A program made the position numbers and the translations under genes. The notes under the pieces were generated by a model. That model saw nothing but the letters and a program-made list of their open reading frames with translations, was not told where the DNA came from and did no database searches. From assembly GCA_002839355.1 (NCBI GenBank), contig PGXW01000012.1, positions 1 to 64,000 on the forward strand: DNA of 64,000 bases. Direction: 5' to 3'. Origin of the DNA: Spirochaetae bacterium HGW-Spirochaetae-2. Lineage in GTDB: Bacteria > Spirochaetota > Spirochaetia > Sphaerochaetales > Sphaerochaetaceae. Numbering within the stretch: position 1 is the stretch's first letter; each line of letters begins with the position of its first letter. Below are positions 42,270 to 60,125 of this stretch, in pieces.

Positions 42270-42322
42270 TCCTTTTTAAGTTATACAGGGGAAGGAATTG
42301 TTAGGACTTGTCTAGACATCTG

Positions 42323-42364
42323 ACTGGTACCAAATTTGGTTGTTGGTACCAATTTGGTACCAGT
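42323..42364. promoter_or_regulatory. GGTACCAA inverted repeat upstream of integrase
   Basis: ACTGGTACCAAATTTGGT (42323-42340) and ACCAATTTGGTACCAGT (42348-42364) are near-perfect inverted copies (one extra T). GGTACC occurs three times within 40 bp. It lies between the att tRNA and the integrase start, as expected for an operator or integrase arm/Xis sites. A related GGTACCAATTGG is at 48204-48215. Confidence 0.55.
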
Positions 42365-42383
42365 CTATTCTAAGGAGGAGTCC

Positions 42384-45871: not shown

Positions 45872-46036
45872 TTACTTCTTACAATCTCCGTTTTTATCTT
45901 TTGATTTACACTCATCACACAGTTCCCCAGATGAGGGTTTTGAGTATTGAGAATCGTAATCGACAGTTGGCCATTTTGAACAATTCTTACAATAGTGCCA
46001 TGTATCACTACCTTTTTTCTTTCTATATTCTGCCAT
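45872..46036 (-). CDS. 54-residue zinc-ribbon protein
   Basis: Starts at ATG 46036 with a clear AAAGGAGG upstream. The sequence begins MAEYRKKKGSDTWHYC and has two CxxC pairs, YCKNC (Cys 16 and 19) and LCDEC (Cys 40 and 43), giving a small zinc ribbon with a Lys-rich tail ending CKK. Small proteins of this kind recur in mobile elements, but no function is known to me. Confidence 0.75.
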   Translation of the reverse strand: MAEYRKKKGSDTWHYCKNCSKWPTVDYDSQYSKPSSGELCDECKSKDKNGDCKK

Positions 46037-46123
46037 GAACATCGCCTCCTTTCTGAGTCCTTACCCAATATCTAAAAAATAATTAACAGGAAAATACTAT
46101 ACGCCTTTTTTTTGCATGTATAA

Positions 46124-46732
46124 TTATTTTTCCTCTTCAAATTGTTTTAATAACTGCTGATATTCTTCAACATTCTGTCCTGCTGCAACTTCCTTAATAA
46201 CACCGAGAATTAATGCTTCATTACTAAATACATCCCCTGGATTATATTCTCCAAGTCTCTCAATATTTTCTGCAGGTGATGTTGGAATTTCTACTTCATT
46301 AATCCACCAGCGATCAAGTTGTGTATAAATTCTTACAATATCACCCAATAAATCATAATCCTCTTTTCTGGGGCCGTCTAGAAGGAACCGATCAATATGG
46401 TGGGTAATTTCATTTCTTCTATCCAGTGCATTCTTAATACATTTTAGGTCGTCCGCACAAATAGCGTGATTGTTAACATACCATTGAAAAACAGCATCAT
46501 ATTTTTTCTTTTGCAAAGGTAATACTTCCTGTTTAAATTTATCAGATTCATACGTTGAATAGTCCAGTTCTAACAAATTCGCACCATCATCTATATAAAG
46601 ATAAGATAGGTTTTGTTTTGCTGTATGTCTCATTCTCTCAAAATAGGCAATGAAGATTCCAATAAATGCAAAATTGTTCATCAAATTTTCACGATTAATA
46701 ATTCTTTTAACCCAGTCATTATCATTATTCAT
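46124..46732 (-). CDS. HEPN-like protein of unknown function
   Basis: A 202-residue protein, all helical by eye. It carries RRNEITHHID near residue 107, which fits the R-x4-6-H motif of HEPN domains, and a following Trp-rich helix (LDRWWINEVEIP). ATG 46732 with GGGAGAG upstream is chosen over ATGs further upstream. AT-rich composition unlike the phage core. It may be an RNA-cutting toxin or defence effector; the motif is short, so this remains uncertain. Confidence 0.5.
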   Translation of the reverse strand: MNNDNDWVKRIINRENLMNNFAFIGIFIAYFERMRHTAKQNLSYLYIDDGANLLELDYSTYESDKFKQEVLPLQKKKYDAVFQWYVNNHAICADDLKCIKNALDRRNEITHHIDRFLLDGPRKEDYDLLGDIVRIYTQLDRWWINEVEIPTSPAENIERLGEYNPGDVFSNEALILGVIKEVAAGQNVEEYQQLLKQFEEEK

Positions 46733-46942
46733 TTTATTTAACTCTCCCATTACAAGCACTTGCATATAGCTCAAGGTATAATTATTTATATATCGGGGTT
46801 ATATTTAGTTCTTTCCCATGGTACAAAGTTCTCACAATATCTTCTCATTGGGTTCAGCTCCTCAAATTGGAAACAATTCGCTACCAACTTTTGTAAAACA
46901 AATTATTTCTATATCCAAAAGGTGGCCCTGTTTTGTAGCTCA

Positions 46943-47242
46943 TCATTTTCTCGTTCTCAACTTAAATTTATTCGAAAAGTATCTGACTTCTAATGTTTCA
47001 AATTCTGAATGGTAGATAGAACCACTCCCAAGACCTTTCGGTATCTGGATTAAACCAAGAATCTCGAGATTACCAACATTTTCATATGTTACATTAATAT
47101 TTTTTGATAAATCGTAATCGAAATCAAAAAGAACTATATGATTCTTGCCCTCGATACAAAAACAAGAGGAACCGAGCAATGATAAAATATTCGCATTTGC
47201 AGGTTCAATTAAATCCAGAATAACAGGGGGTAAATTATTCAA
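46943..47242 (-). CDS. Hypothetical protein, 99 residues
   Basis: Starts at TTG 47242, 16 bases after the stop of the upstream gene, with no clear ribosome site; translational coupling is possible. The sequence (PPVILDLIEPANANILSLLG, CFCIEGKNHIVLFDFD) shows no family I recognise. AT-rich. It lies in the same minus-strand cargo block. Confidence 0.5.
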   Translation of the reverse strand: MNNLPPVILDLIEPANANILSLLGSSCFCIEGKNHIVLFDFDYDLSKNINVTYENVGNLEILGLIQIPKGLGSGSIYHSEFETLEVRYFSNKFKLRTRK

Positions 47243-47258
47243 ATATCTTGATTGATAT

Positions 47259-47558
47259 TTAATTATCTATTTGATTAATTATCCATGGTTTTGAAAATTC
47301 TTTTTTTTGACCAAGCTTATTCACTTGAGTCATGGCTTGGCTCATTTCTTGCGTAATATCTGAAGATGCCCAGATTACTTCAAATTCATTACTTTGTTCG
47401 TCAATTGCTCGACACATACTTACCTCGCCAAGTTCCTTTCCTCCCTTGATGTAAGCTCGAATATTTGATTCGATACTCTCTGTTAATGCATATATTCTAT
47501 CCTCGTACCGGAAGAAACCGAATTCATCCATCATCTTTTCAAACTCATCTTTTTGCAT
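47259..47558 (-). CDS. Hypothetical acidic protein, 99 residues
   Basis: ATG 47558 follows GGAGGA by six bases. The protein (MQKDEFEKMMDEFGFFRYED at the start) is acidic and mixed alpha/beta, with no recognised family. An immunity or antitoxin role would fit its size and the two-gene arrangement with the next ORF, but nothing in the sequence proves it. Confidence 0.6.
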   Translation of the reverse strand: MQKDEFEKMMDEFGFFRYEDRIYALTESIESNIRAYIKGGKELGEVSMCRAIDEQSNEFEVIWASSDITQEMSQAMTQVNKLGQKKEFSKPWIINQIDN

Positions 47559-47691
47559 AAAAAGTCCTCCGTAATACTTTGTAAACGCTTCCACTCGACT
47601 GAGTGTGTAATATATAGTGAAAGAATTACTTGCGTTTTGATTGCAATAGCACCTTTTTCAAACCTTAAGTTCATTATTAAAAATCCTCAAA

Positions 47692-48117
47692 CTAAGAAAT
47701 CATGCTAAGAAGGTTTTTCGCCTGATGTAAGTTATCTCCTTCCTCATCATTTTTTAGAGAGGAATAGAATTTCCTTATCCAAATCAATTCTGTTTTTCTT
47801 TCCTCTGCGAAATTAGTTAATACATCTCTCGTGCTGCCATAGGTTTTCGTGGCGGTGAACATAACATCACAATCATATTTCCTGAAGAAATCACAATTTT
47901 CTTTGAGCGTGGCTTCATAATCTCCCCCGGTAGTGATACCGATTATCTGATTATGATATCTAAAGATAGCTTTGCAATCGATTTCATTATTCTCATTTCC
48001 ATCATAATAGATGCAAACCGATCCTGATTCTTTCGCTTGAAATAGTTTAATCAACAAGTTCAGCGTTGTGGTTTTCCCACTGTTACCAGCTCCATACAAC
48101 CCAACGATCATCTTCAT
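47692..48117 (-). CDS. Small P-loop NTPase
   Basis: About 141 residues. Walker A is GLYGAGNSGKTTTLN at the very N-terminus. A hydrophobic strand (CDVMFTATKTYGS) follows with an RDVLTNFAEERKTELIWIRK stretch. Starts ATG 48117 (or 48123) with GAGGGA upstream. Too small for a full ABC ATPase. It could be a P-loop kinase or GTP-binding-type regulator. Function unknown. Confidence 0.65.
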   Translation of the reverse strand: MKMIVGLYGAGNSGKTTTLNLLIKLFQAKESGSVCIYYDGNENNEIDCKAIFRYHNQIIGITTGGDYEATLKENCDFFRKYDCDVMFTATKTYGSTRDVLTNFAEERKTELIWIRKFYSSLKNDEEGDNLHQAKNLLSMIS

Positions 48118-50566: not shown

Positions 50567-50614
50567 CAGCGGCCGCCCGTAGAGGTGCCGCATCCAAGGG
50601 AAGGGAGAAGACGT

Positions 50615-50959
50615 ATGGGATTGAAAGACATCAGCAGCCTTCATGATTTCAACCAGGGCGTCGTCCGGGAACAGTTCGGTCGGGAATGGCCGAAGATCCT
50701 GGCGAACATCGCGGATCCGAGCACGGATCCGAAAACGAAGCGGAAGCTCACCATCGAGGTCGAGGTGGTGCCGTCGGAGGACCGTTCGAGCGCGAAGGTC
50801 ATGGTGAAGTCGAGGTCGGCCTTGGCTCCGGTCAAGTCGGACGAGAGCGTGATCTTCATGGAACTCACCAACGATGGTGTGGTGGCCATGTCCAGGGAAA
50901 AGGAAGTCCAGCCTGAACTGGACAACGTGTTGCCGATGAAGAACGGCAAGGAGGCATGA
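50615..50959 (+). CDS. Conserved phage hypothetical protein, 114 residues
   Basis: Starts ATG 50615 (MGLKDISSLHDFNQGVV) with AAGGGAG upstream. Mixed charged protein with a beta-rich region KRKLTIEVEVVPSEDRSSAK. It is paired with the next gene, and such pairs occur in early regions of other phages. I do not recognise a function. Confidence 0.65.
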   Translation: MGLKDISSLHDFNQGVVREQFGREWPKILANIADPSTDPKTKRKLTIEVEVVPSEDRSSAKVMVKSRSALAPVKSDESVIFMELTNDGVVAMSREKEVQPELDNVLPMKNGKEA

Positions 50960-53420: not shown

Positions 53421-54320
53421 ATGAAATACACGGTATTGGGATTTTCCCAACAACGGTTGATGGAGCTGGGGTTGGGGATGGATGAGGCGATGATACTCAG
53501 GTGGTTCATCGATTACCAGGCGACCGGGAAGATGCGCAAGATGACCATCGACGGGGTTGGCTGGGTATGGGTCAACTATGCGGGGGTCCTTGGCGATATC
53601 CCGATTGTCGGCGGATCCGCAAAGACGATATCGCGCCGCTTCGAGAAGCTGCAGGCCTCTGGTGTGATGGAGCATACCACCCTCAGGGAAGGGGGAACAT
53701 TCAGCTGCTACCGTATCAACGAGGCTGTATATGCCACCCTGATCGACGATGCCTGGATCCGGACAGAACCGGCGGACGAAGACCTTGATTCCGAGCTGGA
53801 ATATGGCGGAAAGGGTCGGACAGAATTGTCCGAGGGTGGGACACTTTTGGGTGAGGGGGTCGGACAGATTTGTACCAGGGGGTCGGACAAAAGTGTCCGA
53901 CCAAAAGACTCTTCTACTAGAAAGACTCTTCTACAAGATAAGAAACATATACCCCCCTTACCCCCCGAGGGGCAACGCGGGGTTACCGAGCTCCAATCCC
54001 AGCAATACCGGTTCGACCAGTTCTGGAGCCTGTATCCGAAGAGGCGGGCAAAAGGGGATGCCGAGAAGGCTTGGAGGAAGCTCGCGCCTTCCCGGGAACT
54101 TTTCGAGACGATCCTGGCAGCGATCGCCACGCAATCGCAGAGTCCCGATTGGCAGAAGGACGGCGGGCAATTCATCCCGTATCCCGCGACCTGGCTTCGC
54201 CGGAAGGGTTGGGAGGATGTGGTAGTCCTGGATCCGCAACGCAGCAGCGAACAGCTGTTCCGTGCTGGGCGGTTCAACGATGCCTGGGCGGGAAAGACCA
54301 CCCGGGAAGTCGAGTTGTAG
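53421..54320 (+). CDS. Phage replication initiator with origin iterons in its coding sequence
   Basis: A 299-residue protein. Residues 1-110 look like a winged-helix DNA-binding domain (MGFSQQRLMELGLGMDEA-like, GGSAKTISRRFEKLQASGVM). Residues about 130-185 form a low-complexity linker and the C-terminal part (FDQFWSLYPKRRAKGDAEKA) resembles replisome-organiser tails. The linker DNA carries the iteron array. This is the arrangement of lambda O and related initiators. A DnaC-like gene follows. Confidence 0.78.
   Translation: MKYTVLGFSQQRLMELGLGMDEAMILRWFIDYQATGKMRKMTIDGVGWVWVNYAGVLGDIPIVGGSAKTISRRFEKLQASGVMEHTTLREGGTFSCYRINEAVYATLIDDAWIRTEPADEDLDSELEYGGKGRTELSEGGTLLGEGVGQICTRGSDKSVRPKDSSTRKTLLQDKKHIPPLPPEGQRGVTELQSQQYRFDQFWSLYPKRRAKGDAEKAWRKLAPSRELFETILAAIATQSQSPDWQKDGGQFIPYPATWLRRKGWEDVVVLDPQRSSEQLFRAGRFNDAWAGKTTREVEL
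53815..53934 (+). other. Probable phage replication origin: four iterons plus AT-rich direct repeats
   Basis: Iteron 1 GTCGGACA-GAAT-TGTCCGAG (53815-53834), degenerate iteron 2 GTGGGACA-CTTT-... (53836-53855), iteron 3 GTCGGACA-GATT-TGTACCAG (53859-53878), iteron 4 GTCGGACA-AAAG-TGTCCGAC (53882-53901, perfect palindrome). Starts are 21-23 bp apart, two helical turns. They are followed by AAAGACTCTTCTAC twice (53904-53917, 53921-53934), 17 bp apart, in AT-richer DNA. Confidence 0.75.
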
Positions 54321-54331
54321 GAGGAATGACC

Positions 54332-55138
54332 ATGGATAGGCCTTTGACGAACGCAGCGCAGCATATCGGGAACACGACATTCGGCACCAAGCTCCGCAGG
54401 ATAATCATCCAGTGTCCGAAGCATGGACCAGTGGGGGTGTTCGCGACAACCGACCAGTTCGGAGTCGAGTATGTCGGCAAGTGCCTGAGGTGCGTGGAGG
54501 AGGAGTCGGCTGCCGAAGCCACCGAATTCAAGCGGAGGCGGGAGGATCCCGCACTGCAATTGCGCAACCGGATGATCGATGCGGGGATTCCCGACGATTA
54601 CCTGGACGAATCCTTCTCAACGTACACCTTCGACGGGTGGGAAGATCCCCACCGGGGTTTCTTCGAGTATTCCCGGCTGTTTGTGGAGAACAGGGACAGG
54701 ACCATGGTCGTCCTTGGTAATCCGGGGGTTGGGAAAACGCACGTCGCCTGCTCGATGCTGCGGGAAATGATCGTCCGTGGATTCAGCGCCTTGTATGTGA
54801 CCGAGGGAGCCCTGCTCAGGCAGATCCGATCGACCTTTTCCAAGAAAGGCGGACCAACCGAGGAGGAGGTGTTCAGGCGCTACACCTCCTGCGATGTGCT
54901 GGTGATGGACGAGATGGGTATCGCCCCCTGGAGCGAATACAGCGTGCAGTCGTTGGCCGACATCATCGATACCAGGGTGAGCCGGAAGAAGAAGACCGTC
55001 TTTTTGGGCAACATGGATCTGGGCACCTTCAAGAAGCACCTGTCCGATGCGAGCATTTCCCGGATATCGATGGGAAAGACCTTCGAGGTCACAGGGGACG
55101 ATTACCGGAAGCTGAAGAAGCGGCAGGGGCGGGTATGA
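54332..55138 (+). CDS. dnaC: DnaC-like replicative helicase loader (AAA+ ATPase)
   Basis: A 268-residue helicase loader. Residues 1-85 form an N-terminal region with a Cys-rich segment (IQCPKHGPVG, YVGKCLRCVEE), possibly zinc-binding. Walker A is LGNPGVGKTHVAC and Walker B is DVLVMDEMG. It delivers the DnaB-type helicase to the origin formed by the preceding gene. Start ATG 54332 follows AGGAGG; an ATG at 54326 is also possible. Confidence 0.85.
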   Translation: MDRPLTNAAQHIGNTTFGTKLRRIIIQCPKHGPVGVFATTDQFGVEYVGKCLRCVEEESAAEATEFKRRREDPALQLRNRMIDAGIPDDYLDESFSTYTFDGWEDPHRGFFEYSRLFVENRDRTMVVLGNPGVGKTHVACSMLREMIVRGFSALYVTEGALLRQIRSTFSKKGGPTEEEVFRRYTSCDVLVMDEMGIAPWSEYSVQSLADIIDTRVSRKKKTVFLGNMDLGTFKKHLSDASISRISMGKTFEVTGDDYRKLKKRQGRV

Positions 55139-57613: not shown

Positions 57614-58447
57614 ATGGAGAAAAAAAAGATACTGATAACAGTCAAGACATACCCGATTCCTGCGAACAAATATATTGAGACTGTTTGTACTGCTGGGATA
57701 ACTGAAGATGGAGATTGGATTAGGATATACCCAATAAAGTTCAGGATGCTTGAGCAGGAAAAACAATTCAAAAAGTATGAATGGATAGAAGTCGAGGTTG
57801 AAAAGCGATCAGGTAAATTGGATAGAAGACCGGAATCATATCGATGCAACATTGATAGTCTGAAGATTGTTGGAAAAGTTGAAACCGGTGGAGTTCATTG
57901 GCCATTTCGAAGAGATCTCTGTTTGAAGAATGTATATAAAAGCATGAAATTGCTATTGGTAGATGCTGATCCTAAAGGTACTTGTACTTCCTTGGCTGTA
58001 TTCAAACCAAAAAAAATCAAAGAATTCACTATTAGCTCCATAGACACCAAGAAGCTTGATTCAAAAAAAGAAGCAATTTTGGAAAGATTGAGTCTCCAAC
58101 AGGATTTGTTTTCTAATGATATCCCTGCATATTGGAAGATGGCACGATCGATACCATATCGATTTGGCTATAAATTCCTAGATGAAGAAGACAATGAATA
58201 CGATCTCATGATTGAAGATTGGGAAATAGCAACCTTGTTTTTAAGATATGCGAGTAGTCCTACAGTTGCTCTCGAAAAAGTTCGACAGAAGTATTTTGAT
58301 GATTTTGCAAAAAAGAAGGATGTATATTTTTTTGTTGGAACCAGAATGGAACACCATCTGAAAGGATATCCAAATTTCTTTTCAATTATTGGGGTCTTTC
58401 CTCCCGCACCTTTGTTAATTAATCCACAATTGTCATTTGAACTCTGA
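57614..58447 (+). CDS. Unknown partner of the DUF488 protein, 277 residues
   Basis: ATG 57614 lies 10 bases after the DUF488 stop, so the pair is likely co-transcribed. The protein is lysine-rich and begins MEKKKILITVKTYPIPANKY, with RIYPIKFR, GVHWPFRRDL and DVYFFVGTRMEHH. No family recognised by eye. Aromatic strands suggest a nucleic-acid-binding fold. AT-rich base use separates it from the phage core genes. Confidence 0.65.
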   Translation: MEKKKILITVKTYPIPANKYIETVCTAGITEDGDWIRIYPIKFRMLEQEKQFKKYEWIEVEVEKRSGKLDRRPESYRCNIDSLKIVGKVETGGVHWPFRRDLCLKNVYKSMKLLLVDADPKGTCTSLAVFKPKKIKEFTISSIDTKKLDSKKEAILERLSLQQDLFSNDIPAYWKMARSIPYRFGYKFLDEEDNEYDLMIEDWEIATLFLRYASSPTVALEKVRQKYFDDFAKKKDVYFFVGTRMEHHLKGYPNFFSIIGVFPPAPLLINPQLSFEL

Positions 58448-58560
58448 TATCTGAATATGAATTCTGGCTTAAAGTCATAAATATCCAGCTACCTACTAGA
58501 GCATGGATTTCATCATTTGGGTGCTTATTCTGACGGGAAAATGCAGTGGGAGGAGTAATA

Positions 58561-59376
58561 GTGGGGAAATGCATTTTTTGTAATTCTGAAGGACCTTTCA
58601 CCACAATTGAACATATCATTCCAGAATCTTTAGGTAATACAGATGATATTCTAGAAAGAGATGGTGTATGTGATTCTTGTCAAAAATATTTCGGAAAAGA
58701 AATTGAACAATATGTTCTCTCAAAATCTTGTTTAGGTTTTTATAGGGTATTGCTAAATATTAAAACAAAAAAAAATCGTGAACCCATTTTCGATCTATCC
58801 CGTCCAGAAAAAAATTCTGGTAAAATTCCATCATATCATCCAAGAAGTGATTATGGGCTGAAATTTTTCCCCTATAATGGCGATGATGCAAATAGAATAG
58901 AAGTGGAGATAGTTGAGGACGAAAGATTCAACAAAATGCTTGCAGATAATAAAATTGAAATTGTGATGACTCCGTATATGGTTGTAAATATTGGTAGATT
59001 CCTTGGCAAGATTGCTCTTGAATTACTTTTTAAAGGTATAGGAGACGGTGTATTTGATGAACAATATGAGGCGTTAAGGAGATATTCAAGATATGGAACA
59101 TCCAACGAAATTTGGCCACTACTTCATGGAGTGCTCAAGGATCCCATTCATAACTGGGAGGCTGATGGAGGTGACACGGAATCCAGACTAATTTACAGGT
59201 ATTCAATTTTTGAATTGAAGCGTTATCAAAATCTAGTAATTTTCCTATTTGATATTGGGTCTGAACGTTATGGTATTGTATGTAATCAAAAATTCCCTAA
59301 TCCCCGAGTTGTAGATCAGCTCATAGATGTGGATGGAAATAAGGTTCAATTTATATGGTACCCAAATTTTCGATAA
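58561..59376 (+). CDS. HNH endonuclease-type protein of the cargo island
   Basis: A 271-residue protein starting at GTG 58561 (GGGAGGAG upstream). N-terminus: KCIFCNSEGPFTTIEHIIPESLG then CDSCQKYFG, a zinc-binding HNH layout (CxxC ... IEH-IPE ... CxxC). The C-terminal 180 residues are of unknown fold. Placed after the DUF488 pair; a nuclease in an AT-rich cargo island is often an anti-phage effector (inference). Confidence 0.7.
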   Translation: MGKCIFCNSEGPFTTIEHIIPESLGNTDDILERDGVCDSCQKYFGKEIEQYVLSKSCLGFYRVLLNIKTKKNREPIFDLSRPEKNSGKIPSYHPRSDYGLKFFPYNGDDANRIEVEIVEDERFNKMLADNKIEIVMTPYMVVNIGRFLGKIALELLFKGIGDGVFDEQYEALRRYSRYGTSNEIWPLLHGVLKDPIHNWEADGGDTESRLIYRYSIFELKRYQNLVIFLFDIGSERYGIVCNQKFPNPRVVDQLIDVDGNKVQFIWYPNFR

Positions 59377-59393
59377 TAGGTCTTCTGTAGATA

Positions 59394-60125
59394 TTATTTT
59401 TTTAAGCCATAAGATAAATAAAATTGGTTTAGCTTTTTATTTCTCTTGATTGGATCGGGGTTTTTATTGATTTGCGTTAATATGTCATCCAATCCTAAGA
59501 TGGAAACGAACTTAGTTTGGATATCTTCGCTTTCAGACCTAGAAATCAAATAGCTATCCAAACACCTGATCACCTGTATTGAAACAACTGAAAAAGATGA
59601 TGCCTCTTTTAGTGTTGGTCTATTCTGCTCATAATCAGATAATAATATTTCAATATCTAGATTACAATATTCTGCGAGGATGATTTCTCTATCCACTTTC
59701 AATTGTTCCTTCTCGGCCTTGTATAGCTGCACATTAGATCCATGGACGATTTTATTACGCCAAAGAAGCAAGAGTTTAACTAGTAAATACTTGTGTTGAT
59801 CAATGTAAGAGCATCCTAAGGTAAAGGCTTGATCAAGTCGCTCAGCTTTAGATTCTTTACAATTAATATTCAAAATTTTAAGAAAATCTTCAACATAGGT
59901 GTTGAGGCTTTCTGCTAAAAAAACCATTGACGATTTTATTAAGAAAATTCGCGCTTGTCTTGTCGATGCAGAAATATCATCTGTATGCCAAGAAATATTC
60001 ATGTCTTCTGGTAGCTTGGGGGATTTTATAGTTTCAAGTGTACTTAAGCTAACACATGCAGTGTTCAACGAATGAATAACGTGACCGAGTGATTTTAAAT
60101 AACGTTTAAGAAGTATAGTCTCCAT
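59394..60125 (-). CDS. HEPN-motif protein, 243 residues, opposite strand
   Basis: A helical protein with WRNKIVHGSN near residue 130, the R-x4-H core of HEPN ribonuclease domains, preceded by long helices. ATG 60125 has GGGGGA upstream. It is convergent with the HNH gene of the island. HEPN proteins often act as RNases in defence or toxin systems; whether it is active is not shown. Confidence 0.65.
   Translation of the reverse strand: METILLKRYLKSLGHVIHSLNTACVSLSTLETIKSPKLPEDMNISWHTDDISASTRQARIFLIKSSMVFLAESLNTYVEDFLKILNINCKESKAERLDQAFTLGCSYIDQHKYLLVKLLLLWRNKIVHGSNVQLYKAEKEQLKVDREIILAEYCNLDIEILLSDYEQNRPTLKEASSFSVVSIQVIRCLDSYLISRSESEDIQTKFVSILGLDDILTQINKNPDPIKRNKKLNQFYLSYGLKK

Follow-up and report, generated by a model that had tools for sequence, protein, structure and literature searches.

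Where does replication of this prophage begin, and do the repeats inside its replication initiator gene mark the place? We analyzed a 64-kb stretch of DNA (hereafter the window), part of a 3.6-Mb genome, in which a prophage, possibly a defective one, encodes repressor, replication, and terminase functions. The first-pass annotation had read the repeats as an origin built on the logic of lambda O and ori-lambda, with a different motif, and every prediction of that proposal that can be tested at the sequence level holds. With a probability of about 0.88, we consider the region 53.8-53.95 kb to be the iteron-based theta origin of the prophage, nested in the linker-coding part of the initiator gene and working like ori-lambda and the pSK41 RepA_N origin. 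The genes and domains concerned, together with the relatives L030 and L039 described below, are as follows.

53421..54320, + strand: replication initiator gene (299 aa) with a phrog_428-type N-domain, an origin-coded linker, and a phrog_270/9327/9474-type C-domain (PHROGs)
53421..53750, + strand: coding region of the winged-helix DNA-binding N-domain (aa 1-110), the predicted iteron reader (AlphaFold pLDDT 92.3; structural matches)
53982..54260, + strand: coding region of the exchangeable C-domain, the predicted recruiter of the helicase loader (swapped in L030 and L039)
54332..55138, + strand: gene of a DnaC-like AAA+ helicase loader, in function the equivalent of lambda P (phrog_50, E 6.2e-49; IstB_IS21, E 4.1e-19), the next gene 3' of the initiator ORF 53421-54320

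Four 20-bp iterons, each composed of a half-site, an A/T-rich 4-bp core, and a second half-site, were located in the linker-coding DNA.

53815..53834, unstranded: iteron 1, GTCGGACAGAATTGTCCGAG (15/16 of GTCGGACA-N4-TGTCCGAC)
53836..53855, unstranded: iteron 2, GTGGGACACTTTTGGGTGAG, degenerate and essentially one half-site (11/16; a better copy is aligned in relative L039)
53859..53878, unstranded: iteron 3, GTCGGACAGATTTGTACCAG, with one good half-site (13/16)
53882..53901, unstranded: iteron 4, GTCGGACAAAAGTGTCCGAC, a perfect inverted repeat GTCGGACA-AAAG-TGTCCGAC (16/16)

They are spaced by 21, 23, and 23 bp. The number of copies, their place in the linker-coding part, and the 21-23 bp spacing had been correctly described from the start, but their quality as palindromes had been overestimated, since two of the four are near-perfect inverted repeats and the other two are degenerate. 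The fourth copy, announced as a perfect 20-bp palindrome, is actually a perfect inverted repeat around AAAG: its 8-bp arms are perfect (9 bp with the flanking G/C), its core is non-palindromic, and 16 of its 20 positions are self-complementary. In 1000 synonymous-codon shuffles of the initiator gene, a single 8-mer, counted on both strands, reached at most three copies within 120 bp and never four, so the clustering is not due to chance. The exact 20-mer of iteron 4 occurs only once in the 3.6-Mb genome, where the next best site is the neighbouring iteron, and it was found in nine stretches of IMG/VR, two of which are this gene (in the window's own phage and in L039) and the rest isolated sites in unrelated DNA. 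Uniqueness of the palindrome was rejected as evidence, because one palindrome alone tells little and most IMG/VR copies lie in unrelated DNA.

The AT-richer direct repeats that had been noted after the iterons are indeed present, as two 17-bp repeats (53904-53937) in a stretch of 70% AT. The repeats, AAAGACTCTTCTACTAG at 53904-53920 and AAAGACTCTTCTACAAG at 53921-53937, are identical at 16 of 17 positions.

53904..53950, unstranded: 70% AT stretch adjoining the iterons, candidate duplex-unwinding region (base composition)
53902..53937, + strand: conserved post-iteron element, made up of CAAAAGACTCTTCTACTAG and the second of the 17-bp repeats, AAAGACTCTTCTACAAG, and a candidate for the unwinding element (EM motif search of 61 relatives; 17-bp repeats)

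The 47 bp past the last iteron reach 70% AT, while the part that codes for the N-domain has 44%. Across 50-56 kb, just 0.05% of the 47-bp windows are equally AT-rich, and 53904-53950 is the most AT-rich segment of the surrounding 6 kb.

Comparison with a relative, L030 (PGXU01000023), showed that this block of DNA is frozen. At third codon positions, 22 of 113 sites changed in the N-domain, the protein sequence of which is almost the same, as against none of 40 in the block formed by the iterons and the 17-bp repeats, where all 121 bases are identical (Fisher p=3.7e-5 over all sites). The linker directly upstream of the repeats has diverged (39 of 52 bases identical), and beyond the block the C-domain of L030 has been replaced relative to that of the window. 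A recent transfer of the block alone is a possible alternative to conservation, and is what an origin cassette would do. The more distant L039/L060, with 65% N-domain identity to the window, carry the window's inverted repeat in five copies, joined to a C-domain of a third type. The same N-domain and iterons occur as natural chimeras with three C-domains, namely phrog_270/9327 in the window (53960-54260), an O-like phrog_678 in L030 (5500-5880), and phrog_15768 in L039 (4592-4867), with breakpoints just past the 17-bp repeats.

A family was then assembled by scanning IMG/VR with ten N-domains as a start, which gave 70 relatives, or 61 non-redundant genes. A repeat-rich linker was found in 57 of these 61 genes, whereas control segments were rarely repeat-rich (N-domain, 5/61; C-terminal, 2/27; upstream, 5/58; downstream, 1/61). 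The spacing was 21-24 bp in 87 of 103 cases. The linker protein looks repetitive in several relatives (e.g., L054, L049), as would be expected if the selected feature were a repetitive, flexible peptide linker and the DNA repeats only its by-product. Nevertheless, the linker repeats exceeded those of synonymous shuffles, under which they are lost, in 55 of the 61 genes (p<=0.01), and most of the 103 spacings are 22 or 23 bp and 71 are not multiples of three, placing successive copies in different reading frames, so these are not peptide repeats. In addition, the protein encoded upstream in the linker diverges while the DNA block stays frozen. We thus regard a peptide-level origin of the repeats as barely credible.

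The repeats might also act in RNA, as GC-rich mRNA hairpins that terminate or attenuate transcription or translation, and the region does fold better than its shuffles (z=-3.2), with iteron 4 able to form a 9-bp GC-rich stem. This hairpin strength is, however, a by-product of the inverted repeats; no U-tract follows iteron 4, and terminator-like matches amount to one weak instance (53827-53843), no more than chance would give. Moreover, the repeats of many relatives are poor as inverted repeats and are still spaced by 21-24 bp, an indication of the DNA helix rather than of RNA. A role in RNA is therefore highly improbable.

The iteron units themselves vary widely, being common to close relatives and different in distant ones. 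Their similarity tracks N-domain identity, with 18 of 20 bases matched above 60% identity and a baseline of 11 of 20 below 40%. Such co-divergence would be the pattern expected of a co-evolving reader and its sites.

Several lines of evidence bear on the putative reader. The whole 299-aa initiator matched phrog_270 (E 1.3e-26), and its N-domain matched phrog_428 (E 4.8e-7), as did 35 of 52 family N-domains. Full-domain structural matches included the RepA_N N-terminal domains 4pt7, 4pql, and 5kbj and the DnaD N-terminal domain 2vn2, with Z of about 8. The Z scores of 8.2-8.4 over 106 residues against 4pt7/4pql/5kbj come with an rmsd of 5 A, and unrelated winged helices tie with them. A Foldseek search of the N-domain against solved structures gave weak matches, none with E <0.001, and the RepA_N Pfam model (PF06970) matched neither the window initiator nor any of the 52 family N-domains. 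Because unrelated winged helices score alike, Foldseek E-values are weak, and the Pfam model is unmatched, we assign the N-domain by fold class alone, as a winged helix predicted with high confidence, and claim no RepA_N membership. Homology to lambda O was not found when a profile of the 52 N-domains was aligned to it with hhalign (probability 0.2%). The structure model of the C-domain is modest (pLDDT 77), and a search by sequence for a solved relative of this domain found none; relatives of the C-domain exist that carry other N-domains.

Many repressors are among the structural neighbours of the N-domain, and inverted repeats with 8-bp arms are typical operators of winged-helix proteins. 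The repeats could accordingly be operator sites, bound by the initiator or a repressor and serving only to control the transcription of the replication genes by autoregulation, with the origin elsewhere. Against this, the sites lie about 400 bp inside the gene, no promoter-like sequence was found in 53.0-55.2 kb, and in nearly all of the family an AT-rich element comes after the phased arrays, something that an operator could do without. In lambda and pSK41, furthermore, this arrangement has been proven to be an origin (PMC5043065, PMC5703833). We consider a purely regulatory role very improbable.

The origin reading is supported by the presence of DNA-level repeats between a winged helix and a swappable C-domain, by the loader gene that comes next, by the adjoining AT-rich DNA, and by the recurrence of this layout in nearly all relatives. 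In lambda (gene O), as in P22 (gene 18) and HK97 (gp54), the origin likewise sits in the linker of the initiator gene. Ori-lambda also has four inverted-repeat iterons with A-tract cores spaced by 20-24 bp, and its AT-rich unwinding stretch is on the promoter-distal side, as in the window. Lambda, P22, and HK97 share one layout with spacings of 20, 24, and 23 bp, and other O genes show it too. As with lambda P, the neighbouring gene encodes a protein that would act on the helicase, or the helicase itself. In contrast, the half-site differs from that of ori-lambda, the loader is DnaC-like and not a P protein, and the initiator N-domain is without sequence similarity to lambda O. These comparisons support the view that the window initiator would work like the ori-lambda system without being a lambda O gene.

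The architecture is also comparable to that of pSK41 RepA: a winged helix of about 120 N-terminal residues (predicted in the window), four in-gene sites, an origin-coded linker, and an exchangeable N-domain plus origin are features it has in common with the window. The N-domain of pSK41 RepA binds four sites in its own gene, its origin-coded linker is dispensable as protein, and in the pPR9 chimera a phage-like N-domain and origin have supplanted the resident ones (PMC5703833). In RepA_N iterons, a poly-A tract separates the two arms of an inverted repeat (PMC7145576), and several of the RepA_N genes that we screened have in-gene repeats spaced by 23 bp, like the family. A further counterpart is orf60 of Tetrasphaera phage TJE1 (phrog_428), with an N-domain about 37-39% identical, in-gene repeats, and a post-iteron element; its iteron sequence and C-domain differ from those of the window, and the TJE1 record annotates no origin there.

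The DNA itself shows the anatomy, its conservation at the DNA level, its divergence in step with the N-domain, and the exchange of modules; that the initiator binds and bends the array, that the DNA opens, and that the helicase is loaded there is inferred from lambda O and pSK41 RepA. Dimers of lambda O bind and bend inverted-repeat iterons and open an adjoining 40-bp AT-rich region on supercoiled DNA; the minimal unwinding unit is two iterons plus the AT-rich region, and O proteins also have affinity for single strands that are AT-rich (PMC5043065, PMC7466680). By analogy, the winged-helix N-domain, probably as dimers, would bind the four iterons, which would all lie on one face of the DNA because they are two helical turns apart. 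The bent array would then strain the adjoining 70%-AT stretch, where the conserved CAAAAGACTCTTCTACTA repeats would open and be held as single strands. Finally, the C-domain would hand over the DnaC-like loader encoded by the next gene, and the loader would place DnaB, the helicase of the host, on the strand thus opened.

An unbiased EM motif search over ORF positions 330-720 of the 61 relatives recovered a motif just past the array, CAAAAGATtCTTCTAyTA (family form CAAAAGAYtCTTCTAyTA), with a log-likelihood of 369, while synonymous shuffles gave 136-161. Of the best sites in the 61 genes, about half fall -3 to +4 bp from the end of the last iteron, and CTTCTAYTA is present in 17 of 61 genes when 2.3 are expected. 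Of the 55 sites that score above 8 bits, 46 are in one reading frame and 9 in another, an observation that is supportive, not decisive, of an element acting at the DNA level. Lambda was absent from the training set of the motif. In its 2.2-kb O-P region, where CAAAAGACACTATTACAAAAGA adjoins iteron 4, the top match to the family profile is CAAAAGACACTATTACAA, 3 bp past iteron 4, with 14.4 bits, and the next reaches 4.0. Since a lambda-O scan of IMG/VR gave only 99-100% identical copies, diverse O genes were drawn from a phage collection. AAAAGA starts 3-5 bp past the last iteron in seven of nine lambda-type O genes; P22, HK97, and two other O genes score low with the full 18-bp profile and have just its AAAAGA half in common with the family. 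Most O genes translate the element in a single frame, as TK(D/E), and protein constraint is possible there.

The CAAAAGA element was not found at that spot in the screened RepA_N genes with in-gene iterons, and it is thus not a trivial companion of any in-gene origin. Several RepA_N genes (L459-L488) have short ATCTATC/CCATC-type repeats 43-46 bp past the last 23-bp-phased repeat, a candidate for a different unwinding element. Taken alone, neither the element nor the 16-mer AAAGAYTCTTCTAYTA is diagnostic, as only five of 120 sampled IMG/VR matches of the 16-mer were in such genes; these five all lie at nt 402-447, and the reversed control gave 0/120.

In bacterial oriC, initiator boxes are followed by DnaA-trio trinucleotides (3'-[GA]AT-5'), which unwinding requires (PMC8287927), and DnaD recognises TnnT steps opposite the DnaA-trios (PMC10201434). 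On its complementary strand, going away from the array, the post-iteron element has 3'-GAA-GAT-GAT-5' at about 11 bp past the array's end, a pattern conserved in the family, and its top strand holds TnnT steps. The order of boxes and then trio-like trinucleotides at about 11 bp thus resembles that of oriC. Unlike in oriC, the boxes here are phage iterons and not DnaA-boxes, and no TTATCCACA-like site with <=1 mismatch was found within 53.0-54.6 kb. The likeness of the element to the trio system is put forward as a hypothesis. The dnaA-dnaN intergenic region of the host has DnaA-boxes but no clear trios; it speaks neither for nor against the likeness, and gives no basis for proposing that the phage mimics the host origin.

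We tentatively propose, with doubts that outweigh our confidence, that temperate phages of several bacterial phyla and lambda use a two-part in-gene origin code. One part would be an iteron array that changes with the DNA-binding domain, and the other a single-strand element that hardly varies (CAAAAGAYtCTTCTAyTA, frequently as a tandem pair) 0-4 bp past the last iteron, serving as a trio-like signal for unwinding or helicase loading and as the phage counterpart of the DnaA-trio/DnaD-recognition element. Repeats in the unwinding region of lambda were already known (PMC10797057). A literature search, with coverage of subscription papers mostly missing, found no paper describing a post-iteron element in phages, and the element is possibly new.

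Other features of the prophage were recorded. An uncharacterised set of proteins is encoded at 58546-60125, between the replication and packaging genes. The GC content falls to 0.33-0.34 at 46000-48000 and 58000-60000, as compared with about 0.55 inside the prophage, which suggests recently acquired cargo. A small ORF (50585-50956), 2.5 kb upstream of the origin, matches phrog_997, annotated as a replication terminator-like protein, and an operator-like site at 42322-42365 has perfect 15-bp inverted arms (GACTGGTACCAAATT/AATTTGGTACCAGTC) with a 12-bp repeat inside (TGGTACCA core). The 40.9-kb viral contig IMGVR_UViG_3300038336_000152 (L005/L043) encodes an initiator 100% identical in protein sequence to that of the window, and the element thus exists as a separate viral record.

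Origins of this kind are already known from lambda and RepA_N plasmids; what deserves attention is the co-divergence of reader and sites across phyla and the constant post-iteron element. To our knowledge, phage replication in spirochaetes is little studied, and the locus offers a concrete, transplantable origin for spirochaete phages. The lambda logic becomes a rule that can be tested across hosts, in which the array goes with the N-domain and C-domains can be exchanged freely. If the post-iteron element is real, the sequence information that directs opening of the lambda AT region and helicase loading would become testable across many independent origins, as would a link to the chromosomal DnaA-trio mechanism.
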